NCBI RefSeq assembly: GCF_001536285.1
Contig: NZ_FAOZ01000001.1
Location: forward strand, 496,001-560,000
Origin: Parafrankia irregularis
Lineage (GTDB): Bacteria > Actinomycetota > Actinomycetes > Frankiales > Frankiaceae
Reading direction: 5' to 3'
Length of the DNA stretch: 64,000 bases
The notes beneath the pieces were generated by a model. It was given only the letters and a program-made list of their open reading frames with translations. It was not told where the DNA came from and ran no database searches. Positions 4,742 to 63,739 of the stretch are shown in pieces. Both the position numbers and the translations under genes were made by a program. Position 1 is the first letter of the stretch. Each line of letters starts with the position of its first letter.

Positions 4742-7048
4742 TCACGGCGGGGAACGGCCCGCGCCGCCCGCGGCGGACGTCGCTGCGGCCGGCCCGGTTC
4801 CGCTGTGGGCGGCCGGCCCCGAGGCAGGCCACAGCGCGGGCAGCACCGCGCCGGGCGCGGCCGCCTCGGGGCCTGCCACACCCGGTGCCACCGCACCCTG
4901 GACCACCGCACCCTGAACCACCGTGCCCTGCCCAGCCGCGCCCTGCGCCGACGGGGCCGGGCCGGCGGTCGTGCCCGCACCACCGCCGAAGCTTCCGTCC
5001 CGGCCCAGCTCAGGCAGGTCGGCGGGCGGCACGCCGCCGGGCAGTGCCGCTGGCTGGCCGACGCCGTAGAGCGCCTTGTAGATCTCCTTGGCGACCGGCG
5101 CCGCGTACTCCGCACCGGTCCCGGATTCCGGAATGCTCACCACGACCACGAACTGGGGATCGTTCGCCGGGGCGAACGAGGCGAACCAGGAGGTGTCGCC
5201 CTTGCCCTCGACCTCGGCGGTACCGGTCTTGCCCCCGACCGGTACGAGATCGCTGGGCCAGTCCGCGAACACACCCGACGCCGTGCCACCGGCCTCGGTG
5301 GTCACACCCTGCAGACCGCCCCGGATATAGGCGAGGATCTCCGGCGAGACGGGCAGATGGCCGGTGACGGTGGGCTCGATGAGCTTCGTCCGCTTGCCGT
5401 CCGGGGAGATGGTCGCCTTCGCGAGCGTGGGCTGGTAGATCGTCCCACCGTTTGCGATGGCCGCGTAGGCGGTGGCTAGCTGCAGGGGGCTGACGGAGAG
5501 GTACTGGCCCTGGCCGATGGAGAACTGCACGGCCGCACCGGCGTTGTAGAGGTAGCCGTCGACGCAGGCCTCGGCCGCGTACTTGCGGTACCGCTCCGCC
5601 TTGACCGGGTCCGGTTCCTCCGGATAGCCGTTCTGCGCCCGCCGGCAGTACGACTCCTTCAGCTCCTCCCAGATCTTCTTCGCGTCCGCCCGGTCGACGA
5701 CGGCGCCCGAGGTCTCCCCGGGCAGGTCGATCCCGGTGCGGCTGCCGAACCCCATGGCCTCGGCCATGTGGACGAAGTACTCCTTCGGTTCCGGGTAGGG
5801 GCCGCGGCCGTTGCGCAGACCGCCGTCGGCGACCCAGGCGTCGTAGGCGAACTTGTCGAAGATGACGTCGCAGGAGATGACCAGCGACTGGTGCAGCGTG
5901 ATCGGGCCGGCCGACGACCCGTCGAAGTTGTGGAAGATCTGGTCACCGACCTGCAGCGTCGGCGCGCAGTCGAACTTCTCGTCGCCCTTGGCGCCCATCT
6001 GCTGCATCGCGACCGCGGTGGAGACGACCTTGAACGTCGAGCCCGCCGCGGCCGAGCCCTGGTAGGCACGCGACAGCAGCGGTGTGCCGTTCGCCGGGTC
6101 GGACAGCGCGGAGTAGTCCTTCTGGGAGATGCCGCCGACGAACACCGACGGGTTGTAGGTCGGCAGGCTGGCGAGCGCGACCACGCCGCCGGTACGCACG
6201 TTCAGGACGACGGCCGACGCCGCCCTGGCGCCACCGCCGAGCGACTCCAGCGTCTTCCCGAGCGCCTGCTCGGCGGCCCGCTGCACGTCGAGGTCCAGGT
6301 TGAGCACCAGGTGGTCGCCACTGACCGGGTCCGTCGTGGAGGCGGTGCCGGCGACCCGCCCGAACCGGTCCACCTCCAGGCGCTCCACGCCGTCCGCCCC
6401 GCGCAGCGCGTCGTCGTAGGTGTACTCCAGCCCGGAGACACCGATCAGGCTGTTGAGGTGGTAGCCCTTCTCACCGCCCTGGTCGTCGAGCTGGTCCTGG
6501 GAGACGGGCGCGAGGTAGCCCAGCTCGTGGGCCGCGAGCGAACCGTTCGGGTACTCGCGGACGGCCTGCAGATCCGCCGACACCCCGGGGAAGCGGTCCG
6601 GATGCTCGATCACCGCGAGCGCCTGCGCCGAGGAGACGTCCTTCGCCACCGGAACCGGCTGGTAGGGGGAGCCGTTCCAGCACGGCGCCTTCACCGTGGC
6701 CGAGCAGAATCGGATGCGCTGCTCGATGTCGGCCCGCGGCGTGCCGATCACGGTGGCGAGTCGGTCCAGGACGGCCCGGCCCTTGTCGGACTGCCGGTCG
6801 ATGGTCGACCGGTTCACCGAGATGACCAGGGACGTGCGGTTCCGGACCAGCGGCTGCCCCTGGTCATCGACGATCATTCCCCTGGTCGCCGGGGTGACGA
6901 CCTCCCGGACCCGGTTCGTCTCGGCGACCCTGCGGTACCGCTCACCGTCGAGGATCTGCAGCACCCACAGCCGGGCACCCAGCGTCACCAGCAGAGAGAG
7001 AACGAGCACTCGCAGGATGAGCAGCCGGATCCGCATCCGGTCGTTCAC
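4742..7048 (-). CDS. mrdA: Penicillin-binding protein 2, elongasome transpeptidase
   Basis: 768 residues from a GTG whose last bases overlap the mreD stop (GTGA), indicating translational coupling. One N-terminal membrane anchor lies at about residues 9-30, then a dimerisation domain with VREVVTPATRGMIVDDQG, then the transpeptidase domain with the catalytic STFK at 337-340, SCD at 392-394 and KTGTAE at 607-612. The protein cross-links peptidoglycan outside the membrane in partnership with RodA. The C-terminal 90 or so residues are a low-complexity Ala/Gly/Pro tail containing short QG-VVQGAV repeats. Transpeptidase identity is certain; assignment to PBP2 rather than another class B PBP rests on the mre neighbourhood. 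Confidence 0.93.
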   Translation of the reverse strand: MNDRMRIRLLILRVLVLSLLVTLGARLWVLQILDGERYRRVAETNRVREVVTPATRGMIVDDQGQPLVRNRTSLVISVNRSTIDRQSDKGRAVLDRLATVIGTPRADIEQRIRFCSATVKAPCWNGSPYQPVPVAKDVSSAQALAVIEHPDRFPGVSADLQAVREYPNGSLAAHELGYLAPVSQDQLDDQGGEKGYHLNSLIGVSGLEYTYDDALRGADGVERLEVDRFGRVAGTASTTDPVSGDHLVLNLDLDVQRAAEQALGKTLESLGGGARAASAVVLNVRTGGVVALASLPTYNPSVFVGGISQKDYSALSDPANGTPLLSRAYQGSAAAGSTFKVVSTAVAMQQMGAKGDEKFDCAPTLQVGDQIFHNFDGSSAGPITLHQSLVISCDVIFDKFAYDAWVADGGLRNGRGPYPEPKEYFVHMAEAMGFGSRTGIDLPGETSGAVVDRADAKKIWEELKESYCRRAQNGYPEEPDPVKAERYRKYAAEACVDGYLYNAGAAVQFSIGQGQYLSVSPLQLATAYAAIANGGTIYQPTLAKATISPDGKRTKLIEPTVTGHLPVSPEILAYIRGGLQGVTTEAGGTASGVFADWPSDLVPVGGKTGTAEVEGKGDTSWFASFAPANDPQFVVVVSIPESGTGAEYAAPVAKEIYKALYGVGQPAALPGGVPPADLPELGRDGSFGGGAGTTAGPAPSAQGAAGQGTVVQGAVVQGAVAPGVAGPEAAAPGAVLPALWPASGPAAHSGTGPAAATSAAGGAGRSPP

Positions 7049-7581
7049 AGCCGCCCCCGATCCCGGTGCAGGCGGCGGGAGGCTGCCGTGGCGATCGGGA
7101 ACAGGAACGGGGTCACCAGCAGCGCGTAGAGACCGGCGGCGGCGGCCCGCTCGAGGGCCTGGGCTCCGGTGAGCGCCGCGTCGCCCAGGATCGCGGTCGC
7201 CGCCGCGTTCCCGAGGGTGCCGAACACCGCCGCGGCTCCCACGGTGGCGAGCGGAACGGTGATCGAACGCTCCGCCGCGTTCATCACCAGGCCGGCGAGA
7301 TACCCGACCAGGCACAGCACGAGGGCCGTCTGCCCGAGCACATGGGTGGACATCAGATCGGCCAGCAGCCCGATGACGAAGCCGAGCACCGCGCCGAGCA
7401 GCGGGCCCTCGATCAGCGCGATGATCGCCAGCAGCACGATCACCAGATCGGGGCGGCCAAGCGGGGCGCCGAGCCGGGCCACCACCGACACCTGCAGGAC
7501 GACGGCGACGGCCAGCAGCGCAACCGCGGCCGCGAAGGCACGCGGATGCAGCCGTTCCTCGGAGAACCCGCCATCCCACAC
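7045..7581 (-). CDS. mreD: Rod shape-determining protein MreD
   Basis: 178 residues from a GTG (VWDGGFSEERLH) eight bases after the mreC stop; the end of mreC (GGGGTGA) supplies purine-rich sequence for ribosome binding. Five or so membrane segments are visible (AFAAAVALLAVAVVLQVSVV, LVIVLLAIIALIEG, LVLCLVGYLAGLVM and others), with the polar motif LGFVIGLLADLMS typical of MreD. It is an integral membrane part of the elongasome that bridges MreC and the synthetic enzymes. The open frame upstream of 7581 lies inside mreC and is not used. It overlaps the PBP2 start by four bases. Confidence 0.9.
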   Translation of the reverse strand: MWDGGFSEERLHPRAFAAAVALLAVAVVLQVSVVARLGAPLGRPDLVIVLLAIIALIEGPLLGAVLGFVIGLLADLMSTHVLGQTALVLCLVGYLAGLVMNAAERSITVPLATVGAAAVFGTLGNAAATAILGDAALTGAQALERAAAAGLYALLVTPFLFPIATAASRRLHRDRGRL

Positions 7582-7588
7582 CGCCGCG

Positions 7589-8581
7589 TCACCCCGCGCC
7601 CTGGGCCGCCGGGGCTCCCCCACCGGCCGGGGCCTGCCCGGCCGGCGTCTCACCGCTCTGCGCCTGGCCGGCGGGCGCCTGCCCACTCGGCGCCTGGCTG
7701 TCGGTGGAGCCGGCCGCGCCGGAGTCCGGCACCGCGCGGGGCGGGAGCACCCGGTCACCCGGGTCGGTGGCGGGGCCACCGACGATCACGCCGACCAGGT
7801 CGAGCGTGCCGATTGAGACGAAGGGGCGGACCTCGGCGGTACGAGAGAGGCCACCGACATCCACCACCTCGGTCACTTCGCCGATCGGCACTCCCGCCAC
7901 GTAATCGAGACTACCAAACGTAACCAATCGGTCACCCTTTTGCACCTGGTAGGAGGCGTCATAGAGGGTGAAGGTCAGAGTGGACGGACCCTGGCCACCG
8001 GCGACCGCGCCGAGCAGCTTGGTCTGCTCCAGACGCGCGCCGATGCGGCTGCTCGGATCGCAGATCAGCTTGACGACCGCGGTGCTGTCGGTGACCGACG
8101 TGACCGTCCCGACCAGGCCGGCCGCGTTCACGACCACCTTGTCCACGGCGAGGCCGTCGCGGCGGCCGGCATTGATCGTCACCGTCCAGTCCATCCCGGT
8201 GACGTCACCGACCGCGATGACCCGGGCCGGCACGATCGTGTACTGCCCCTTGTCGGCGAGCAGGCGCAGGTCCGAGAGCTCACCGGCCAACCGGTCGATC
8301 TCGGCGTCGTCGGAGATCTGCCGACGCAGCTGCGCGTTCTCCTCGGTGAGCCGGTCGGCGCGATCGTGGTAGCGGTTCGGGTGGGTCAGCGACGACACGG
8401 TTCGGCCGACCGGCCGGGTCACCGTGGTCACCGCGTTCTCGACCCCGCCCACGATCGAATGCAGCACCCCCCGGGCACCGGGCGCCGAGTCGCTGGTCCG
8501 GTAGTCGAGCGTGATCAGCGTGAACGCGAGGACGAGCAGGACGGCGATGACGAGACGGGAGCGCCTGGTGTCACGTCCCAC
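7589..8581 (-). CDS. mreC: Rod shape-determining protein MreC
   Basis: 330 residues. The GTG at 8581 was chosen because GGAGGA sits six bases before it; a longer reading from an ATG at 8635 lacks such a site. A single membrane anchor (residues about 10-25, LVIAVLLVLAFTLITL) is followed by a coiled coil (RLTEENAQLRRQISDDAEIDRLAGEL) and the beta-rich MreC core with VNAAGLVGTVTSVTDSTAVV and DRLVTFGSLDYVAGVP. The last 60 residues are repeats of the type GQAPAGQ. The protein scaffolds the elongasome outside the membrane. It lies between mreB and mreD as in most actinobacteria that keep the cluster. Confidence 0.93.
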   Translation of the reverse strand: MGRDTRRSRLVIAVLLVLAFTLITLDYRTSDSAPGARGVLHSIVGGVENAVTTVTRPVGRTVSSLTHPNRYHDRADRLTEENAQLRRQISDDAEIDRLAGELSDLRLLADKGQYTIVPARVIAVGDVTGMDWTVTINAGRRDGLAVDKVVVNAAGLVGTVTSVTDSTAVVKLICDPSSRIGARLEQTKLLGAVAGGQGPSTLTFTLYDASYQVQKGDRLVTFGSLDYVAGVPIGEVTEVVDVGGLSRTAEVRPFVSIGTLDLVGVIVGGPATDPGDRVLPPRAVPDSGAAGSTDSQAPSGQAPAGQAQSGETPAGQAPAGGGAPAAQGAG

Positions 8582-8693: not shown

Positions 8694-9725
8694 TCAGCGC
8701 TTCGGCTCGGAGATGAGAACCTGCTGCAGCGCCTCGAACTCCTCGACGAACTTGCCCGACCCCATCGCCACCGAATGCAGCGGGTTCTCCGCGATGTGGA
8801 TCGGCATTCCGGTCTCGTGCCGCAGCCGCTCGTCCAGCCCGCGCAGCAGCGCACCGCCGCCGGTCAGGACGATGCCGCGGTCCATGATGTCGCCGGACAG
8901 CTCCGGCGGGCACCGGTCGAGGGTCACCTTGACCGCGTCGATGACCGCGTTCACGGGCTCCTCGGTGGCCTTGCGGATCTCCTCGGCGGTCACCACGATG
9001 GTCTTGGGCAGGCCCGTCACCAGGTCACGACCGCGGATCTCGGCGCTCGGCTCCTCCGGAACCTTGTATGCCGAGCCGATCGCCATCTTGATCTCCTCGG
9101 CGGTCCGCTCGCCGAGCATCAGCGAGTACTCCTTCTTCACGTAGGAGATGATCGCCGTGTCGAGCTCGTCGCCGGCGGTGCGGATCGACTGGCTGGTGAC
9201 GATGCCGCCCAGCGAGATGACCGCGACCTCGGTCGTGCCGCCACCGATGTCCACGACCATGTTGCCGGTCGGCTCGTGCACCGGGAGGCCGGCGCCGATC
9301 GCCGCCGCCATCGGCTCCTCGATGATGTAGACCTTCCGGGCTCCGGCCTGGTAGCCGGCGTCCTTCACCGCGCGCTGCTCCACACCGGTGATGCCGGACG
9401 GGACGCACACCACCAGCCGGGGCTTGGCGAAATGACGCCGCCGGTGCACCTTCTGGATGAAGTACCGCAGCATCCGCTCGGTGGTCTCGAAGTCGGCGAT
9501 GACGCCGTCCTTCAGTGGGCGGACCGCCACCACGTTGCCCGGAGTACGGCCGATCATTCTTTTCGCGTCGGTTCCGACGGCGAGGATTCCCGAGGTCGTG
9601 GTGTTGATCGCGACGACACTGGGCTCGTTGAGCACGATGCCCCGGCCACGGACGTAGACGAGCGTGTTGGCGGTACCGAGGTCGACGGCCATGTCACGAC
9701 CGAGGAACGACAGCGAACTGGACAT
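8694..9725 (-). CDS. mreB: Actin-like cell-shape protein MreB
   Basis: 343 residues beginning [20 protein letters not shown], with GGAAGG upstream of the ATG. Actin-fold nucleotide motifs are clear: [11 protein letters not shown] (phosphate 1), [13 protein letters not shown] (phosphate 2) and [13 protein letters not shown] (adenosine). It forms membrane-associated filaments that organise wall synthesis in rod bacteria; in sporulating actinobacteria it mainly serves spore wall assembly, so that role is plausible here. It heads the mreBCD-PBP2-rodA series, separated from mreC by about 110 bases. Confidence 0.97.
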
Positions 9726-10266
9726 CGTCGGGTGCCGGCCTTCCCGAGGGGCGCGAGGTGGGACGGATCCGGACGGCGCACGCGGACGACACCGACCGGC
9801 CTTCTCCGACCAACGCGCGAAACGCGTACAGAGTTCGTCGAACGGGCGGGACGGCCCGGATGCGCCTCGTGTGGACCCGTTCACCGTGACCGCCGGTACG
9901 GCGATTACGGCGAGCCACCGGGCACGCTCCGGGTAGGTGAAAGCGTAGACCGCCCCCGACGACGTCGCCGAGCCGACCGGGAAGCGTGTCACCCCACACG
10001 CACCGGGGCACGCGCGGCACGCCGCCCGGCTCCACATCATCCATGGACGGGTGGCAGGTCAGCGGCGGACCGCCGCCGATCGGGCACCCGGCAGGGACGA
10101 GACTTCCCCCGATCGGGGACGGAACACCCGAGGACACCGGGCCGACCACGGCGGCCGGCGGCCGGGTGAGCACCTCGACGAGGCCACGCCCGTCCGGCGG
10201 CTCACCCGCGCCGGTGGAACCCCGCCACCCACCAGGGGTGAGGACGAGGCACCCGGTGCCGGCAGG
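9726..10266. other. Gene-free stretch between ndk and mreB
   Basis: 541 bases, expected to carry the mreB promoter on the minus strand. Open frames here have no recognisable protein features and look like shadows of GC bias. I see no clear hairpin, repeat or operator. Confidence 0.5.
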
Positions 10267-53326: not shown

Positions 53327-54247
53327 TCAATCACCCGCGGGCGGGCGGCGTATCGCCGGGTAGAGGACCTCAGCCGGGCCCCGGCGGTAGAGCGCGGCGG
53401 GCCGGCCTCCGTCGCGGGTGGTCGAGCGGCCCACGGGTTCCAGGAAGCCGCGGGTTCCGGTCACCTTGCGATGGAAGTTGCGCGGGTCGAGCGGGGCACC
53501 CCAGACGATCTCGTAGACCCGGCGCAGCTCGGCCACGGTGAACTCGACCGGGCAGAACGCGGTGGCCAGGGTCGTGTACTCCAGCTTCGACCGCGCCCGT
53601 TCCAGCCCGTCGGCGAGGATCGCCCCATGATCGAAGGCCAGGCCGGCGCCGTCCACCTCGCCCTCGCCGACCCCGCCCTCGCCGACCCCGCCGCGGGTCA
53701 CCCGCTCCGCGCCGGCGACGGCGGCCACGGGGACGAACTCCGCCGCCGCCGCATCCGTTCCGGATCGCGGCTCGGGTAGATCGGGCGCGAGGGCGAGGAA
53801 GGCGATCGTGACGACTCTCGCCCGCGGGTCACGGTCGACAGCGCCGTAGGCGGCGAGCTGTTCCAGGTGCGCGCCCGGCCACCCGGCCGAACCGACACCC
53901 ACCACGGCCGGCGCGGACGTGGCCCGAGCGGTGCCGGCGCCCCGTTCGGCCTGCGCGAAACCCCGTTCGGCTGGTGCCGGCTCGTCAAGCCGCAACCCGG
54001 TCTCCTCCGCGAGTTCCCGGCGGGCGGCCGCCCCGAGCGTCTCGTCCGGGCGGACGAAGCCACCGGGCAGTGCGAGCGCCCCCGCGAAGGGTTCCAGCGC
54101 ACGGCGGACGAGCAGCACGCAGAGCTGATCGGCCCGGATCGTGAGGATCACCAGGTCGGCGGTGACCCCGTAGGGGGCGTAGCCGTCCACGGTCAGCTGG
54201 TTACCCGCGGGCGGGCTGCAAGGCGTCCCACGCCTGTCCTCGGTCAC
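53327..54247 (-). CDS. Nudix hydrolase / NrtR-type regulator
   Basis: 306 residues from the GTG at 54247. The N-terminal Nudix domain has a complete catalytic box, [24 protein letters not shown] (GX5EX7REUXEEXGU), unlike many NrtR repressors in which it is degenerate. After two low-complexity inserts comes a winged-helix domain ([36 protein letters not shown]) characteristic of NrtR. NrtR proteins bind ADP-ribose and control NAD genes. Here it faces an SPFH/NAD kinase-like operon across two 15-bp palindromes, so it probably senses an NAD-derived signal and represses that operon and itself. Confidence 0.9.
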
Positions 54248-54269
54248 GCAGCTGACTGTACCGGCAATC

Positions 54270-54284
54270 TCGTCATATTGACGA
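54270..54284. promoter_or_regulatory. Candidate NrtR operator 1
   Basis: TCGTCA-TAT-TGACGA, perfect 6-bp arms, 22 bases upstream of the regulator start. Confidence 0.65.
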
Positions 54285-54303
54285 GAACTGGTCTGCCTCG
54301 TTA

Positions 54304-54318
54304 TCGTCACTTCGACGA
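54304..54318. promoter_or_regulatory. Candidate NrtR operator 2
   Basis: TCGTC-ACTTC-GACGA, the same half-sites as operator 1 with 5-bp arms, centred 34 bases (about three helical turns) from it and 81 bases before the SPFH gene. Confidence 0.6.
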
Positions 54319-54399
54319 GATCGAGCGGCACTCGGGCTGGCCAGCAGCGACACAGACGGCCAGGCCGGCCACGAGCACCGCGAAGACAAGGAGATCCCC

Positions 54400-55464
54400 A
54401 TGGCGGACATCAGCCGCGCCCTGTTCCTGCGTCACCTGCGGGGCACCCCGACCGCCTACGTCCGTCACCTGCGCGGCGGGCGGGCCCGGCACGAAGGGGT
54501 CGGCCTCACCTTCTGGTACCAGCCGCGCACCGCCGTGATCAGCGAGGTTCCGGTGGACGACCGGGAGCTCCCGCTGCTCTTCCACGCCCGCACGGCCGAC
54601 TTCCAGGACGTCGCCGTGCAGGCCACCGTCACCTACCGGGTGGCGGAGCCCACGCTGGCCGTCCTCCGCCTCGACTTCGGCATCGACCCGGAGACCGGCG
54701 CCTGGCGCACGAACCCGCTGGAGCAGCTCGGCGGCCTGATCGTCGAGACCGCCCAGCAGCACGCCTTCGAACTGCTGGCCCGCACCACGCTGACGAACGC
54801 GCTGGTCGACGGAGTGCCGGCCGTCCGGGAACGCATCGCGACCGGGCTCGAGGGCGACCAGCGGCTGGCCGAGACCGGGGTCGCGGTCGTCGGGGTCCGC
54901 GTCATCGCGATCCGCCCCGAACCGGAGCTGGAGAAGGCGCTGCGCACGCCCACCCGGGAGCAGGTGCAGACCGAGGCCGACCGGGCGACCTACGGCCGGC
55001 GCGCCCGGGCCGTCGAGCAGGAGCGCCGCATCGCCGAGAACGAGATGCAGAACCAGATCGAGCTCGCCCGCCGGGAGGAGGAACTGGTCGCCCAGCGCGG
55101 CACCAACGACCGGCGGACCGCGACGGAGAAGGCGGCGGCGGCTCGGATCGCGGTGGAGGCCCAGGCCGAGAACGCCCGCCTCACCGCGGCCGGCGCCGCC
55201 GAGGCGACCAGGCTGGCCGCCGCCGCCCGCGCCGAGGAGATCGAGCGGGTCGGAGCCGCGGAGGGCGCCGCGGAACGGGCCCGGGTCGAAGCCCTGCGCG
55301 ACCTGGACAACCGGGCGGCGATGACGCTGGCCGTGCGTGACCTGGCCGGCAGTCTCCCCGACATCCAGGCACTGACCATCACTCCGGACGTCCTGAGCGA
55401 GCTGCTGACCCGGCTCGCCGGTGCGGCCCGGACGGGCGGCGCGACCCACACCGGCGGTGCCTGA
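54400..55464 (+). CDS. SPFH (band 7) domain protein
   Basis: 354 residues from an ATG with AAGGAG seven bases upstream. The SPFH domain spans about 40-190 ([60 protein letters not shown]). A long coiled coil (about 200-310) rich in Ala, Glu and Arg follows, then a short tail. No membrane segment is visible, unlike stomatin or flotillin relatives, so any membrane contact would be peripheral. Band 7 proteins form large ring assemblies and scaffolds. Its stop overlaps the start of the NAD kinase-like gene, and it lies opposite the NrtR-type gene. Confidence 0.9.
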
Positions 55465-56399
55465 TGGCCGCGCTCGCCCCGCGGGTCGTCCTGGTCCATC
55501 GGCGCACCGAGTACGCCGAGCTGCTAGATCGGCACGGTACCGCCGGGCAGGCCGCGTTCTTCCTGGCCAGCCGGGGGCGGGACCTCGCCGAGGTGCGGGC
55601 ACGTGACGCCGCGGTGACGGCGGCCCGCCGGGCGGCGATCGCCGCCGTCCCCGCCGACTGGCGCCACGGTGAGGTGGAACGCTCCGATCTCGACCGCTTC
55701 CTGTTCGCCCCCGACGACCTGATCGTCTGCGTCGGCCAGGACGGGCTGGTCGCCAACGTGGCCAAGTACCTCGACGGGCAACCGGTCATCGGCATCGACC
55801 CGGAACCCGGGCGCAACCCCGGGGTGCTGGCCCGGCACTCGGTCGGCCAGCTCGCGGCCCTGCTCCAGACCACTGCGGCAGGCACGTCAGGCGGGGCTCC
55901 GGCCCAGGCCCGGACCCCGTCGGCCCGGACGGTGACCATGGTCGAGGCCAGGTCCGACGACGGCCAGCGGCTGCTCGCCCTCAACGAGATCTATGTCGGC
56001 CACGCCTCCCACCAGACCGCCCGCTACGAGCTCGCCGCCCCCGACCACACCGGAGCCGTCCGCTTCGAGCGGCAGGCGTCATCCGGGCTGCTGGTCGGGA
56101 CGGGAACAGGCTGCGGCGGCTGGTGCCAGTCGGTGTGGCGCCAGCGCGGCAGCCAGCTGGCCCTGCCGCACCCCGAATTCCCCGGTCTGGTCTGGTTCGT
56201 GCGGGAAGCCTGGCCGTCACCGACCACCGGCGCCACCATGGTCGAAGGCCTGCTCCCCGCATCGGCCAACATCGAGCTACGCGCCGAGTCCGAACGCCTG
56301 GTCGTCTTCGGCGACGGCATCGAATCCGACACGATCACCCTCACCTGGGGCCAGCGGCTGTCGGTCGGCGTCGCCGAGCACCGGCTCCGCCTCCTGTAA
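55464..56399 (+). CDS. Divergent NAD kinase-like protein
   Basis: 311 residues, ATG overlapping the SPFH stop (TGATG), so translationally coupled. NAD kinase landmarks are present but altered: GGDG reads GQDG at 91-94 (Asp kept), followed by VIGIDPEPGRNPG; the adenine-binding Asn-Glu pair is at 174-175 (LALNEIYVGHASHQTARYEL); the DGxxxxTPTGS loop reads SGLLVGTGTG at 207-216. It probably binds NAD or a related ligand; whether it phosphorylates it is uncertain because of these changes. Housekeeping NAD kinase is expected elsewhere in the genome. A C-terminal beta domain (SERLVVFGDGIESDTITLTW) matches the NAD kinase second domain. Confidence 0.82.
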   Translation: MAALAPRVVLVHRRTEYAELLDRHGTAGQAAFFLASRGRDLAEVRARDAAVTAARRAAIAAVPADWRHGEVERSDLDRFLFAPDDLIVCVGQDGLVANVAKYLDGQPVIGIDPEPGRNPGVLARHSVGQLAALLQTTAAGTSGGAPAQARTPSARTVTMVEARSDDGQRLLALNEIYVGHASHQTARYELAAPDHTGAVRFERQASSGLLVGTGTGCGGWCQSVWRQRGSQLALPHPEFPGLVWFVREAWPSPTTGATMVEGLLPASANIELRAESERLVVFGDGIESDTITLTWGQRLSVGVAEHRLRLL

Positions 56400-56419
56400 C
56401 ACCGGCCTGAGGATCGGGC

Positions 56420-56762
56420 TGACGTCGGCCCCCTCGGTCCCGTCGGCCCCTGAGCCGACCTGGTGAGGCACGGCGACCGCGTCAGCCTCCCGGAGCGTGA
56501 GATCCAGCGCCTGGCGCAGGCTGGCGTTCTCCTCCCGCAGCCGGCGCAGCTCCGTGAGATCCACATGGTCCCGGCGGGGGTCCTGGCTGCGTACCAGCTC
56601 GGCCTGGCGCACCCAGCCACGTAACGTCTCCGCGCTCACCCCCAGCTCCGCGGCAACGATCTTGATCGCCTGCCAGCCGGATCGCTGGCCCGGCCGAATG
56701 CGGGCGACCCTGGCAACGGCGAGGGCGCGAATTTGCGGTGAATATCTGGTCGGGCGGGCCAT
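56420..56762 (-). pseudogene. IS3-family orfA remnant
   Basis: The ATG at 56762 opens MARPTRYSPQIRALAVARVA, a transposase orfA helix-turn-helix (about 10-60, IKIVAAELGVSAETLRGWVR), then a leucine-zipper-like segment (LTELRRLREENASLRQALDL). Similarity ends near residue 95; the frame then runs antisense into the NAD kinase-like gene to 56277 and no orfB exists. Upstream, ACCCGGGTTTGCGGACGTCC on the minus strand resembles an IS3 end. It is a decayed element or possibly a domesticated small DNA-binding protein. Confidence 0.65.
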
Positions 56763-57522
56763 GGTCAGGTGGCTCCTACGGCAGATAAAGAAGGACGTCC
56801 GCAAACCCGGGTACAGCCCCCCGAGAAATTGGCTGCAGCCTTCGGAACAGCCGGAACAATCACCGGACATTCCTTGGGCATCGGCGGTGCGGGTACACCT
56901 GCGCCCGGCCGCCTCGACCACCGCTCGCGCGCCGGCGGGCGAACCGTGGAAGAACCAACAATGCAAGCCACCCCACGCTGGACGCACTTGCCAAACAAAA
57001 GCTCCGGTCAAGGACTATGACAGACTTCACGCCTGCTGTCAGCAAGTCGCTTCGAATTCATCGCCTCCCCCGGACACCCGAGCCCCGCATGACGAAAACC
57101 CGCAGGTCAGCTGCCACCGCCCCGGGCCAGATCTCACCTGGCGGGAGAGTCGGAAACATCCGCGCCCTGGTCCGAGGAGGGCCAGGGGGCGACAAACCGC
57201 TGCCTACGCTAGGGTTCGCCGACAGCCTCCGCCTCGCCCGAGTCGCCGGACACCTCAATGTTTCCACCAGGTAACAGGTCTTTGTGTGTCCCACCTCACA
57301 GCGCTTCCGCAGTGTGATCCGAGAGCCGGCCACGCCGGGAAGCAATGCTACGAAGGCCGTGAGCAGCGCCGATCCAGGCCCGGTTTAGACCCAAGCAGCC
57401 ATCACCTTGGGTGACCAAAATCGACCACGGGCCACCACTCCCCTGACGTTCCGTCACGATCCCCGGAAGCAGGGTTTCTTGAGTGAGTTGCGCAGATCGT
57501 TTTCGGGCGTCATTTTTCAGTG
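56763..57522. other. Gene-free stretch before the RHS gene
   Basis: 760 bases. The left 60 bases may be the end of the IS3 remnant. Several small open frames exist on both strands, but none has a good start or a recognisable sequence. The promoter of the RHS gene should lie near the right side. Confidence 0.4.
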
Positions 57523-57562: not shown

Positions 57563-57595
57563 GTCATGCCCGAAAACCTGCGGATCGGAGTTCAC

Positions 57596-60500
57596 GTGCT
57601 AAGGGCCTCTCCACCACACCGGCGTAAACCACTCCTACATGTCCTCTGCGTATTGCTGGTCGCCGTTCTCGCGTCCACGGTCACCCAGTTCCTGCCCGCG
57701 CTGCGCGCGAGCGCGTCGGCCGCGCCCACGGAGCCCGCGCAGGCCACGCCGACCGGGCCGGCCGAGCGGCCGGACCTCATCTCGGCGCAGCTCGCCGCTC
57801 GCGCGGAGAAGCGGCGGATCGAGATCACGAACGACCGGACGGAGACGACGTCCACGTTCGTGAACCCGGACGGCACCATCACCGTCGAGTCCTTCTCCGG
57901 CGTGCACCGCATCCGCCGGGGTGACGGCTGGGTCCTGGTCGACACCACCCTCGCCCTCGTCGACGGCAAGGTCACGCCGAAGGCGGCGAAGGCCGACGTC
58001 GTGCTCTCCGCGGGTGGCGGCAAGGCCGGCGGCGATGTCGCCCGGCTCGCCGACGCCGGTCGGGAGGTCGCGTTCGCCTGGCCGACCGCGCTGCCCGCAC
58101 CCGAACTGAAGGGCAACGTCGCCACCTACAAGGCGGTCGCGAAGGACACCGACCTGCAGGTGGAGGTCACCCCGACCGGGTTCGACGTCCAGATCGTCGC
58201 GCACACCCCGGCCGCGGCGCAGGCGGCGCTGAACCTGCCGATGCGGCTCAAGGGCGTGACCGCGGAGCGGACCGCCGGCGGTGAGCTGCGGCTGTCCGGC
58301 GGCGGGAAACTCGCCGCGCGCTCCCCGACCCCGCTGATGTGGGACGCCCACGTCGACGAGAAGACAGGCCTGCCCGACCGTACCCGCACCGTCGACTCGG
58401 CCCTGTCCGGTGGCGGCACGGCGACCCCGACCCTGGCCCTGCGGCCGGACAAGAAGTGGCTGACCGACCCGGCACGGCAGTACCCGGTCACCATCGACCC
58501 CGCCGCGGTCCTGCCCGACAACTTCGACGCCGACGTCGCGAGCGCCTACCCGACGACCAACTACGACACCTACCAGTACCTGCGGGTCGGCGCCTACCTC
58601 GGCTCGGTGCAGCGGTCGTTCCTCAAGTTCGACACCACCGCCATCGAAGGCCGCCACGTCACCGCCGCCACCCTGAACCTCTGGCAGGCCGGGTCCACGA
58701 CCTGTGACGACCAGCCGACGATCGTGCAGGGCTCCGCGGGCCTGTCCTCCGGCGCGACGTGGAACACCCAGCCCGCCTCCGACGGCACCACCTGGGGATC
58801 GGCGAGCTTCAACGAGGGCGCCGACAACAGCTGCGGCGCCGGCCCGGCCAACATCGACATCACCAGCCTGGTCCAGGCCTGGTCCTCCAACGGCCAGCCC
58901 TCCCCCGAGACCCTGACACTGCGCGCCGCGAACGAGACCCTCGACGCCCAGTTCAAGTCGTTCTACTCCGGCGACACCCTGCTCCCCCCGCAGATCTCCA
59001 CCACCTACAACTCCTACCCGGGCACGGTCGCGAACCGGTCCACCTCCCCCTGCTCCGCGCAGTGCGGCGGCAGCCCCGCCACCGTGCTGACGAACAGCAC
59101 GCGACCGGTGCTTTCGGGTGCCTCGACCGACGCGGACGGCGCACCGCTGCGGCTGGACTTCGAGGTGTGGAACTCCGCCGGCACCACCAAGATCACCGAC
59201 GGTTCGGTCTCCGACGTCTCCCCGAACGCCACCGCGTCCTGGACCGTCCCCGCGAGCGTGCTGACGAACGGCACGAGCTACCAGTGGCGCTCTCGCGCCT
59301 ACGACGGCGTCGACTACTCCCAGGCCTGGTCAGGCTGGATCCCGTTCACCGTCGACACCACCGCCCCGTCGGCACCCACCTCGCTGACCTCGGCGGCGTG
59401 GACGTCGGGTGGCTGGTCCACCACCACGTCGGGCACGATCTCGTGGACGTCGCCCGGTGGTGACACCGCGAGCTTCCTCTACGGCCTCGACGAGCCCTCC
59501 CCCAGCACCGAGACCACCGGCACCACCACCCCGACCCTGACCCCGGGCGCCGGACTGCACACCCTCTACGTCCGTACCAAGGACAAGTCGGGCAACCTCT
59601 CCCCCGTCGCCTCGTTCGGCTTCGGGATCGGCACCGGCGCGCTGGCGAGCCCGGCGGAGAACGCCCGGGTGCAGCGCTTCGTCATCCTCGAGGGGCAGGC
59701 GCCCAGCACCCAGGTGTCGGTGACCTACCAGTACCACCTGGGCACCAGCAGCAGCGCGACCTGGTTGGACGTCCCCGTCGCCGACACGGTGATCGACGGC
59801 ACGTCGACGCATCCGACCTGGCCGGCGGCGCGTAACGGTTCCGGGGTGTTCGACCGGCAGAACTGGAACCTGCCCGGCACCCTCGGCGGCGGCTCCGACG
59901 GCCCCGTACAGCTGCGGGCCTGTTTCCGTACCTCGGCCAACGTCGTGTCCTGCACCGCCGCGCGGACGATCGAGTTCACCCGCAACGCCTTCGGTGACTC
60001 CAACGTGAACAGCCAGGTCGGCCCCGGCACGCTGGCACTGCTGACCGGCGACTACTCGCTGTCGGCAACCGACGTGTCGATGCCCACCTACACCGGTTCT
60101 CTCGCCGTCGGGCGGTCGACGACCACGCTGACCCCGCCCTCGGCGACCAGCGACCCATCCGGCGTCTTCGGCCCGGGCTGGACGTCAGACCTGCAGGGCC
60201 CGGAGACCGGCGCTGCCGGCAGCACCCTCACCGACACCACCTCGACCACGAACACGGTGTCACTGACCTCGAGTGAGGGCACGCCGTCCGCCTACAGCCG
60301 CACCGGCTCGGGCTCGTACCCGTACAGCTATGTCGGTGTCGGTGACACGGCCACGGACGGGTCGAAGCTGGTCAAGGACTCCGCCACCCAGTTCACCCAC
60401 ACCGGTGCCGATGGCACGAAGACCGTGTTCGTCTCCAAGACCGTCGGCTCCGCCACCATCTGGGTGACCGACCGCGTCGAGGAGCCCGGCTCCGCGACCA

Positions 60501-63500
60501 CCTCCACCTACACCACCGACAGCGCGGGCCGCGTCACCCGCATCCTCGGCCCGGTACCCGACGGGGTCACCTGCACCACGCTGGTCGCCGGCTGCCGCGC
60601 GCTGACCTTCACCTACGCCACCTCCACCACCGCCACCGGCACCACCCCCGCCACCTGGGGTGACTACACCGGCCGGCTCGCCTCGATCTCCATGTCGCTG
60701 AACGGGGCGTCGGCGGTCGTCGTGGCGCAGTACCGGTACGACAACACCGGCCACCTGCGCGAGCAGTACGACCCGCGCCTGGACAGCGGCGGCACCCACC
60801 TGTCCACCACCTACGCCTACAACGCCGCCGGCCAGGTCAGCTCCTACACCCCACCCGGGCAGGAGACCTGGACCTTCGGCTACGACACCTACAACCGGAT
60901 CACCACCGTCTCCCGCGCCCGGCCCGCCGGTGCCGGCACCGCCACCCAGACCATCGTCTACGGCCTGGCCCTCACCGGATCAGGCGCGCCGATCGACATG
61001 GCCGCGGGCGTCGTCGACGACTGGGGACAGCGCGACCTGCCCTCCTGGGCCACCGCCGTCTTCCCCGCCAGCCGCGTCCCGTCGAACCCGCCCGTCGCCG
61101 CCGACTGGCCCTACGCCGACATCACCTACCTCAACGTCGACGGCCGGGAGGTGAACTCCGCCTCCTACGGCAACGGTGCCTGGCAGATCACCACCACCGA
61201 ACACGATTCGAACGGAAACGTCATCCGCGAACTCGGCGCGGAGAACCGCAACCAGGCAGTCACCTCGACCGCCGACACCGACCCCACCGTCACCGCGCTC
61301 ACCGACTCCGCCGCCCGCGCCCAACTCCTCGACACCGACACCGTCTACTCGACCGACGGCGTCTCGGTCACCGACACGTTCGGCCCGACCCACCGCATCG
61401 TCGACGACACCGGCGCCCAGTACTCCGCCCGCCAGCACGTCCACACCGACTACGACGAGGGCGCCCCGTCCTCGACCGACCCCTACCGGCTGCCGACCAC
61501 CGTCACCACCACCATCCGCCTCGCGAACGGCTCGGACACCGAACCCCGCAAGACCATCAACGGGTACGAGGCCAAGAGCGGCGCGGCGGCTGACACGTCC
61601 GGCTGGACCCTGCGCACGCCCACGACCATCGCCACCTGGATGGGCGGCGGATCCACCCCCAACATCGTCCGCGCCACTTACTACAACAACGCCGGAAACC
61701 CCGTCGAAACCCGGCAGCCCGCGGCCAACGCCGCCGGCACAGACGCCTACACCAGCGTCGTTTCCTACTACACCGCCACCGGGTCCGGTAGCTGCGTCAA
61801 CGCATCCTGGACCGGCCTGACCTGCACCACCGGCCCCGCAGCCCAACCCACCAGCGGAAACCCGCTACCCGTCACCAGCTACACCTACAACAACCTCAAC
61901 CAGCCCCTGACCAAGGTCGACACCGTCACCTCCGGCAGCACAACCACCCGCACCACCACCTACACCTACGACACCGCCGGCCGCCCAGCCTCCGAGGCCA
62001 TCGCGGCCAGCCCCGCCGCGAACGGTGGCACCGCCGTGCCCACCGCCACCTACGGCTACAGCACCACCACCGGCCTGCTCACGACGACGACCGCGTCGTC
62101 GATCACGCTGACCACCGGCTACGACACCTGGGGCCAGGCCACCTCCCAGACCGACGCCGACAGCAACACAGGAACCGCCACCTACGACATCGACGGCCAG
62201 GTCGCCACCCTCAACGACGGCAAGGGCACCTACACCTACGTCTACGACACCGCCACCGAACACCGCGGCCTCGTCACCAGCCTCGGCGTCGGTGCCGGAA
62301 GCGCCCCATCCACCTTCAGCGCCACCTACGACGGCGAAGGACGCCTTGCCGTATACACCTATCCAAACGGGCTCACGAACACGACCCGCTATAACAACAG
62401 CGGAGAGCCGACGAGCCTCGTCTACGCCAAGTCGGGCACACCGTGGCTGACCTTCTCCCAGGCAAGTTCCATCAGCGGAGAGATACGTAGCGACACCACA
62501 GCGGCGGCAGGGAAATCCATCGGGTACGACCTCGCCGGCCGGCTCACCAGCGTCGTCGACGCCGTCAGCTACGGCGGACCCAGAAGCTGCACCACCCGCG
62601 TATACACCTACGACGCGGACTACAACCGCACCGCGGTGAACAGCTATCCCGACGCCGGGGGCCAGCCCGACACCGGGAACTGCTCCACCACGACCACCCC
62701 GATGATCCTGTCCAACGCCTATGACCAGGCCGACCGGATCACCGACACCGGCTACACCTACGACCTGTTCGGCCGCACCACCGCGGTACCCGCCGCCGAT
62801 GCAGGTGGAACCGCGCTCACCGTCGGCTACTACGTCAATGACCTCGTCGAATCCCAGACCTCGGGCTCGGCAACCCGCACCTATGCCCTCGACCCGGCTC
62901 GCCGTATCCGCTCCTGGACTGACGGCTCGACCACCTCGACCAACCACTACACCACCGCCAGCGGCGACAGCCCCGCCTGGATCGGTGTCACCGGCGGAAC
63001 CTGGACGAGAAATATTCTCGGTATCGGTGGCGATCTGGCAGCGGTTCAGAACAGCGCCGGCGCTGTCACCCTTCAGCTCGCCAACCTGCACGGCGATGTC
63101 GTCGCCACCGTCGACGACAGCACCGGCGCCACCGCCATCGCCAGCTACGCCGAATCCGACGAATTCGGCCACGCTTACTTCGCGAGCACCGCTTACGCCC
63201 GCTACGGCTGGCTCGGCACCCAACAGCGGTCCCGTGACAGCCTGGGTGGACTTGTCATCATGGGGGTCCGCCTGTACAACCCCGTCACAGGCCGGTTCCT
63301 TTCCAAGGACCCCGTCGTCGGCGGCTCCGCGAATCCATACGACTACGTGAATCAGGACCCGTACAATTCGTTCGACTTCTCCGGGACCCAGCCGACCGAT
63401 TACAAGCAGTGCCCACTCGGACTCCAGTGCTCCGTATCCCGTGTAATATTCTGGTATAACCCCTGGCCATCGAACTGGCGCAGGGACTGGGTAGGGTCGA

Positions 63501-63739
63501 TAATCTGGAGATTTGCCAGCAAGGGCTTCGTCAAGAGTCGCGAGTTCCAGGAGCGCAGGGTAACAAACACGTTCAGGAGGTACTTCTACTTCAATCGCCG
63601 TTCCCAGGACGTCAGGCTCTACTACGTCGAGGGACGCGCCAGAGTGCGGCTCGGAGTCCCCATCATTCCCTGGTCCTACCCCGCGCCGGCCTTCTCGTCC
63701 GCCTGGAAACTGACGGGATACTGGACCGCATGGGTCTAG
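57596..63739 (+). CDS. Secreted RHS-repeat protein with variable C-terminal tip
   Basis: 2047 residues from the GTG at 57596 (CGGAG five bases upstream; an ATG at 57566 has none). A signal peptide (LLHVLCVLLVAVLASTVTQF) comes first, then a DNRLRE-type domain (nt about 58510-59000, AYPTTNYDTYQYLRVG), a fibronectin-III-like part (SYQWRSRAYDGVDYSQAWSG), and from nt about 60500 RHS/YD repeats such as YDTWGQATSQTDADSNTGTA and YDGEGRLAVYTYPNGLTNTT. The RHS core ends with LYNPVTGRFLSKDPVVGGSA and NPYDYVNQDPYNSFDFSG near nt 63390. The remaining about 115 residues are rich in Trp, Tyr, Phe and Arg and match no toxin family I know. RHS proteins encapsulate and deliver such tips; antagonism between bacteria is the usual role. 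Confidence 0.9.
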   Translation: MLRASPPHRRKPLLHVLCVLLVAVLASTVTQFLPALRASASAAPTEPAQATPTGPAERPDLISAQLAARAEKRRIEITNDRTETTSTFVNPDGTITVESFSGVHRIRRGDGWVLVDTTLALVDGKVTPKAAKADVVLSAGGGKAGGDVARLADAGREVAFAWPTALPAPELKGNVATYKAVAKDTDLQVEVTPTGFDVQIVAHTPAAAQAALNLPMRLKGVTAERTAGGELRLSGGGKLAARSPTPLMWDAHVDEKTGLPDRTRTVDSALSGGGTATPTLALRPDKKWLTDPARQYPVTIDPAAVLPDNFDADVASAYPTTNYDTYQYLRVGAYLGSVQRSFLKFDTTAIEGRHVTAATLNLWQAGSTTCDDQPTIVQGSAGLSSGATWNTQPASDGTTWGSASFNEGADNSCGAGPANIDITSLVQAWSSNGQPSPETLTLRAANETLDAQFKSFYSGDTLLPPQISTTYNSYPGTVANRSTSPCSAQCGGSPATVLTNSTRPVLSGASTDADGAPLRLDFEVWNSAGTTKITDGSVSDVSPNATASWTVPASVLTNGTSYQWRSRAYDGVDYSQAWSGWIPFTVDTTAPSAPTSLTSAAWTSGGWSTTTSGTISWTSPGGDTASFLYGLDEPSPSTETTGTTTPTLTPGAGLHTLYVRTKDKSGNLSPVASFGFGIGTGALASPAENARVQRFVILEGQAPSTQVSVTYQYHLGTSSSATWLDVPVADTVIDGTSTHPTWPAARNGSGVFDRQNWNLPGTLGGGSDGPVQLRACFRTSANVVSCTAARTIEFTRNAFGDSNVNSQVGPGTLALLTGDYSLSATDVSMPTYTGSLAVGRSTTTLTPPSATSDPSGVFGPGWTSDLQGPETGAAGSTLTDTTSTTNTVSLTSSEGTPSAYSRTGSGSYPYSYVGVGDTATDGSKLVKDSATQFTHTGADGTKTVFVSKTVGSATIWVTDRVEEPGSATTSTYTTDSAGRVTRILGPVPDGVTCTTLVAGCRALTFTYATSTTATGTTPATWGDYTGRLASISMSLNGASAVVVAQYRYDNTGHLREQYDPRLDSGGTHLSTTYAYNAAGQVSSYTPPGQETWTFGYDTYNRITTVSRARPAGAGTATQTIVYGLALTGSGAPIDMAAGVVDDWGQRDLPSWATAVFPASRVPSNPPVAADWPYADITYLNVDGREVNSASYGNGAWQITTTEHDSNGNVIRELGAENRNQAVTSTADTDPTVTALTDSAARAQLLDTDTVYSTDGVSVTDTFGPTHRIVDDTGAQYSARQHVHTDYDEGAPSSTDPYRLPTTVTTTIRLANGSDTEPRKTINGYEAKSGAAADTSGWTLRTPTTIATWMGGGSTPNIVRATYYNNAGNPVETRQPAANAAGTDAYTSVVSYYTATGSGSCVNASWTGLTCTTGPAAQPTSGNPLPVTSYTYNNLNQPLTKVDTVTSGSTTTRTTTYTYDTAGRPASEAIAASPAANGGTAVPTATYGYSTTTGLLTTTTASSITLTTGYDTWGQATSQTDADSNTGTATYDIDGQVATLNDGKGTYTYVYDTATEHRGLVTSLGVGAGSAPSTFSATYDGEGRLAVYTYPNGLTNTTRYNNSGEPTSLVYAKSGTPWLTFSQASSISGEIRSDTTAAAGKSIGYDLAGRLTSVVDAVSYGGPRSCTTRVYTYDADYNRTAVNSYPDAGGQPDTGNCSTTTTPMILSNAYDQADRITDTGYTYDLFGRTTAVPAADAGGTALTVGYYVNDLVESQTSGSATRTYALDPARRIRSWTDGSTTSTNHYTTASGDSPAWIGVTGGTWTRNILGIGGDLAAVQNSAGAVTLQLANLHGDVVATVDDSTGATAIASYAESDEFGHAYFASTAYARYGWLGTQQRSRDSLGGLVIMGVRLYNPVTGRFLSKDPVVGGSANPYDYVNQDPYNSFDFSGTQPTDYKQCPLGLQCSVSRVIFWYNPWPSNWRRDWVGSIIWRFASKGFVKSREFQERRVTNTFRRYFYFNRRSQDVRLYYVEGRARVRLGVPIIPWSYPAPAFSSAWKLTGYWTAWV

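Follow-up and report, generated by a model that had tools for sequence, protein, structure and literature searches.

In Parafrankia irregularis, an SPFH gene and a gene for a divergent nicotinamide adenine dinucleotide (NAD) kinase-like protein make up an operon of their own, served by a dedicated NrtR-type repressor, and this module is found in hundreds of species of at least three phyla. It lies in a window of 64,000 nucleotides (contig NZ_FAOZ01000001.1, positions 496,001 to 560,000), which is the whole stretch analysed here and comes from a genome of 9.5 Mb. What the data support is that the genes are a unit, how the operators are laid out and how the kinase-like protein is folded; one promoter is common to both genes, and its sites are tied to the divergent nrtR gene. 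As to function, we judge the chances about even that the module is an NrtR-switched SPFH assembly that works on NAD or one of its derivatives and carries an NADK2-type enzyme whose donor site is altered. An earlier note on this DNA had described an nrtR gene facing an SPFH gene that is coupled to a NAD kinase-like gene, and every element of that description is present: the repressor with its intact Nudix box, the two 15-bp palindromes, the stop/start overlap, the GQDG sequence and the NE pair. The parts, in window positions, are as follows.

53327-54247, minus strand: likely coding region of the nrtR-type regulator (open reading frame 53327-54331), with an intact Nudix box, a Nudix domain and the NrtR winged helix
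54267-54287: operator 1 (ATCTCGTCATATTGACGAGAA), overlapping the predicted -35 element TTGACG at 54278-54283
54301-54321: operator 2 (TTATCGTCACTTCGACGAGAT), overlapping the predicted -10 element TATCGT at 54302-54307, with an 18-bp spacer
54400-55464, plus strand: SPFH/Band-7 protein of 354 amino acids, with an SPFH domain and then a helix of about 115 residues
55464-56399, plus strand: NADK2-like protein of 311 amino acids, whose start codon shares TGATG with the SPFH stop
55734-55745, plus strand: G-Q-D-G, residues 91-94, where NAD kinases have G-G-D-G; D93 is the predicted catalytic base
55983-55988, plus strand: N174-E175, the NE/D motif
56079-56123, plus strand: SSG...TGTG..W, residues 206-220, the NADK2-type conserved region II

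Of 146 related genomes, 36 encode a homologue of the kinase-like protein and 37 a homologue of the SPFH protein; the same 36 genomes hold both, and the 37th, with SPFH alone, is cut off at a contig end. At least 572 stretches in a species-genome collection encode relatives of the kinase-like protein, and among the best 80, which were kept, an SPFH gene lies directly upstream in all 79 that have enough upstream DNA. Altogether, the two genes adjoin in 100 of 100 loci with a readable flank (about 97 of them distinct), and their start and stop overlap by 4 nucleotides in 79 loci and by 1 nucleotide in 7. Of the 80 named loci, 36 have an NrtR-type gene facing the pair, as do 16 of the 20 others, and no further conserved neighbour was found beside the trio. 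The protein distances of the two partners are correlated, with a coefficient of 0.66 within the actinobacteria and 0.96 over all members. The shared genomes and the constant adjacency rule out chance neighbours. The proposal of the earlier note that the three genes form a functional unit is borne out, and the unit is conserved.

The consensus TTnTCGTC-N5-GACGAnAA occurs at two sites upstream of the SPFH gene, and in the window the palindrome cores (54270-54284 and 54304-54318) are the centres of the two 21-bp operators. Among 97 distinct upstream regions, 85 space the sites by 33 or 34 bp (34 bp in the window) and 92 have a paired operator score of 36-42, while shuffles reach at most 30. Because these scores are far above the shuffles and the layout is kept across genera and phyla, the arrangement is more than chance. 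Almost all regions have TTGAC inside the right half of site 1 and TAnnnT inside the left half of site 2, so that the sites cover the predicted -35 and -10 elements. When six genomes were scanned with the consensus, allowing at most one mismatch, the hits were the module, in Streptomyces also a distant nrtR gene, and few other places. In these six genomes, near-perfect operators are thus nearly confined to the module, which makes it unlikely that a global NAD regulator acts on it in passing. One Streptomyces genome has two perfect extra operator copies far from the module, at contig positions 439069 and 445508.

The regulator of the window matches the Pfam Nudix family PF00293 (E 2e-17) and the NrtR winged helix PF21906 (5e-14), both over the cut-off. 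Its open reading frame, if read from the GTG at 54331, runs through both operators; since the relatives and the operator positions point to the GTG at 54247, translation probably starts there. The module regulators share with MsNrtR, which binds ADP-ribose, the Nudix and winged-helix domains, the divergent layout, predicted autoregulation and palindromic operators (PMC6800001). They differ from it in the operator sequence, which is GTTTTCGA-N7-TCGAAAAC in MsNrtR, and in the target, which is nadABC for MsNrtR (PMC6800001) and is predicted to be the SPFH operon for the module regulator. The full Nudix box is present in 57 of 57 readable actinobacterial module regulators. Streptomyces is the main group without NrtR in the module neighbourhood, and six Streptomyces nrtR genes outside the module have the same operator upstream and lie roughly 90-150 kb from the module where both share one contig. 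These relocated genes form one clade (98/97), which is grouped with the module regulators at moderate support, in a grouping that also pulls in three long-branched sequences without the operator. Two further NrtR paralogues are present in the window genome, and one of them adjoins a gene that, judged by eye, resembles pncB.

The AlphaFold model of the kinase-like protein is good (predicted local distance difference test, pLDDT, 88; predicted template-modelling score, pTM, 0.84), and its best fold match is human NADK2, with Z 24.1 and a root-mean-square deviation (rmsd) of 2.7 over 276 residues, followed by bacterial NAD kinases with Z 18.6-21. A profile match to NADK2 (5e-14) spans the N-terminus through region II, and the match to Pfam PF01513 is under its cut-off (12.7 vs 25.5 bits). 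With human mitochondrial NADK2 (PDB 7r4j-m, 7n29) the protein has in common the whole fold, the N-terminal region and the TGTG..W region II; unlike the human enzyme, which has GGDGT, it is bacterial, has GQDGL and has an obligatory SPFH partner. With the canonical PpnK/NadK enzymes (PF01513) it shares the fold, the catalytic Asp and the NE/D motif. The earlier description of an altered TPTGS loop was half right: the loop does depart from TPTGS, but what stands there is the human NADK2 pattern SSGL..TGTGx.W. A canonical NAD kinase is encoded elsewhere in 13 of 13 genomes checked, which rules out a plain housekeeping NAD kinase and makes the module protein a second, divergent copy. Thus neither condition under which the earlier note would have dropped the module idea, genes that fail to co-occur or a plain housekeeping kinase, holds. 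The nadK1/nadK2 duplication reported in Actinobacteria, which was identified by orthology to E. coli nadK (PMC6675116), is probably a different pair from the canonical NAD kinase and the kinase-like gene of the module.

Position 92 of the kinase-like protein is Gln in 99 of 101 members and Pro (GPDG) in the other 2, so that none has the canonical GGDG. D93, G94, L95, V96, A97, N98, N174, E175, S206, S207, G208, T215, G216 and W220 are invariant in 101 of 101; D93 is also kept in all distant members, GQDGLVAN is identical in the members from Pseudomonadota and Treponema, and the NE motif of the 101 is ND in most distant members. The activity of the Mycobacterium tuberculosis NAD kinase needs Asp-85, Asn-159 and Glu-160, and GGDG has been described as common to all NAD kinases, followed by T or S in enzymes that use adenosine triphosphate (ATP) or polyphosphate and by N in ATP enzymes (PMC8553519). 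The Gln within the motif and the Leu after it lie outside this donor scheme (PMC8553519). From these residues we infer an altered donor site and, with the catalytic Asp and the Asn-Glu pair kept, a retained acceptor site. The same pattern might also belong to a pseudo-kinase, which would bind NAD(H), NADP(H) or one of their derivatives, leave it unphosphorylated and serve an SPFH ring as an adaptor or gate that senses nucleotides. The replacement of the GGDG loop by GQDGL in nearly every member, across phyla, with the acceptor-side residues kept, speaks for it; nevertheless, the counterpart of the NAD kinase catalytic base is never lost, although it is not obviously required for sensing alone, and we regard a pseudo-kinase as rather unlikely. 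GGDG-type active sites are common to diacylglycerol kinases and phosphofructokinase, and if the protein were an active kinase whose substrate is instead ADP-ribose, another dinucleotide, a sugar or a lipid, this would agree with the donor loop and the C-terminal VRExxPS motif, both specific to the family, and with the annotation of plasmid copies as 'sugar kinase' or 'ATP-NAD kinase PpnK-type'. However, NADK2 is the closest homologue by far, the NE/D acceptor motif is retained and the regulator class is tied to NAD, and we consider such a change of substrate unlikely.

The SPFH protein of the window matches Band_7 (PF01145, E 4e-12, 46.9 bits vs a cut-off of 23.6), and structure comparison placed the stomatin SPFH domain on it with Z 12.6 and rmsd 2.5 over 111 residues. 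A fold search with its model was led by entries of the HflK/C-FtsH, QmcA-YbbJ and major vault protein families, which have the SPFH domain and the long helix in common with it; NAD+ has been reported to be bound in the interior of human vaults, together with vPARP (PMC13347060). When the whole model was aligned with HflK/C, erlin, prohibitin and the vault protein, rmsd values were above 10 Å; a different placement of the long helix is the probable cause, and these alignments thus speak for family membership only. The module protein differs from HflK/C-FtsH, QmcA-YbbJ and the vault protein in its NADK2-like partner and in that no membrane span is predicted in it, the 19-residue Kyte-Doolittle maximum being 1.5 in actinobacteria and 1.8 in distant members; it may be attached to lipid.

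The earlier note had confined its view to actinobacteria, which was too narrow. Outside Actinomycetota, where the spread was seen mainly through plasmid records, the trio occurs in Pseudomonadota, and SPFH and kinase-like genes with NrtR nearby occur in Treponema. Plasmid-borne kinase-like proteins that are 31-48% identical were found in Rhizobium, Cupriavidus, Methylomonas, Providencia, Proteus, Moraxella, Acinetobacter, Roseomonas and Treponema, and the 58 plasmid records that match the Rhizobium SPFH protein nearly coincide with those that match the kinase-like protein. On the plasmids whose flanks were read, an NrtR-type gene faces the pair except in Treponema, where it lies about 4 kb away, and in Roseomonas, in whose plasmid flanks no NrtR-type gene was found. 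The SPFH reading frame of Acinetobacter appears broken, and no DNA match to the Proteus module was found in 5,426 E. coli genomes. The Roseomonas protein is nearer to the actinobacterial type (48%) than to that of Rhizobium (39%), which suggests that the module has been transferred between phyla. This patchy distribution and the copies on plasmids would also suit an anti-phage system acting on NAD pools, and an NAD theme is known from several defence systems. Nevertheless, the module has no NAD-degrading effector domain and no further conserved partner, its dedicated repressor is conserved within the unit, phage copies were looked for and none were found, and PADLOC gave a weak generic Nudix match to PDC-S07 (E 3e-4) and one to REase_II (E 0.03), nothing meaningful. 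The defence by NAD depletion that had been proposed for this locus is thus unsupported, and we hold an anti-phage role to be very improbable.

Several observations concern the surroundings of the module. In the window, an IS3-type transposase fragment (HTH_Tnp_1, E 2e-10; 56277-57011, minus strand) comes directly after it, and farther downstream (57566-63739, plus strand) lies a gene for a secreted protein of 2057 amino acids that is RHS/YD-repeat-like, as judged by eye. Units of tet(H)/tet(J) adjoin the kinase-like gene in Moraxella, Acinetobacter and Proteus and on a small plasmid, and C-terminal scraps of the kinase-like gene are found on plasmids of Pasteurellaceae and others, a pattern suggestive of mobilisation of the tet unit from beside the module. 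On the Methylomonas plasmid, the module is closely followed downstream by a second gene for a NUDIX hydrolase (locus 9133-10197). The Roseomonas kinase-like reading frame (locus positions 6992-8179) differs from the other members in that it is extended at the C-terminus and has a hydrophobic stretch there. A 257-kb contig of a viral collection carries an SPFH gene and a kinase-like gene (40% identical).

We propose that the NrtR-switched SPFH assembly would work in the following way. NrtR dimers would shut the promoter by covering the -35 and -10 elements, and a rise in a ligand derived from NAD would free the promoter of them; this ligand is probably ADP-ribose, as it is for characterised NrtR proteins. 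The SPFH protein would then be produced and would form a ring or a cage-like oligomer that lacks a membrane-spanning anchor, and this oligomer would carry the NADK2-like enzyme. As the phosphate-donor loop appears rebuilt (GQDGL vs GGDGT/S/N) and the acceptor side and the catalytic base of NAD kinases appear kept, the enzyme would most likely 2'-phosphorylate NAD(H) or a close derivative, with an unusual donor or under unusual control, and the module may be an on-demand NAD(P) unit at high NAD turnover. Activity, substrate, ligand and complex formation are predictions, and the tie to NAD chemistry rests on homology, namely the NADK2 fold and the NrtR class. Four points weigh against this mechanism. 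GQDG in place of GGDG might abolish the use of ATP; the window copy has Gly218 where the region II Thr stands in 91 of 101 members; ring or cage formation is drawn from family resemblance, the SPFH model being weak overall (pTM 0.42); and the Nudix catalytic glutamates are lost in the Pseudomonadota regulators read, so that the Nudix reaction cannot be essential. This degenerate Nudix box indicates that the shared role of the module regulators is probably sensing. A bolder form of the mechanism is a vault-like NAD-processing compartment, in which an anchor-free SPFH cage, induced by NAD breakdown, would enclose or display the NADK2-type enzyme, and this enzyme would use a new phosphate donor or form a new nucleotide product; we think this improbable.

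No published description of the combination of SPFH, NAD kinase-like and NrtR proteins was found in the open-access literature searched, and within it the earlier statement that no system of such composition has been described holds. Current annotations are generic or misleading ('SPFH domain-containing protein', 'sugar kinase', 'hypothetical protein'). Nevertheless, the tight linkage and wide spread of two genes that have a regulator of their own mark a process held together by selection. The module would give bacterial physiology a second, conditional enzyme of the NAD-kinase type, would pair SPFH proteins with a small-molecule enzyme and would supply a bacterial relative of human NADK2, and the GQDG signature makes the family easily recognised and its chemistry directly testable.
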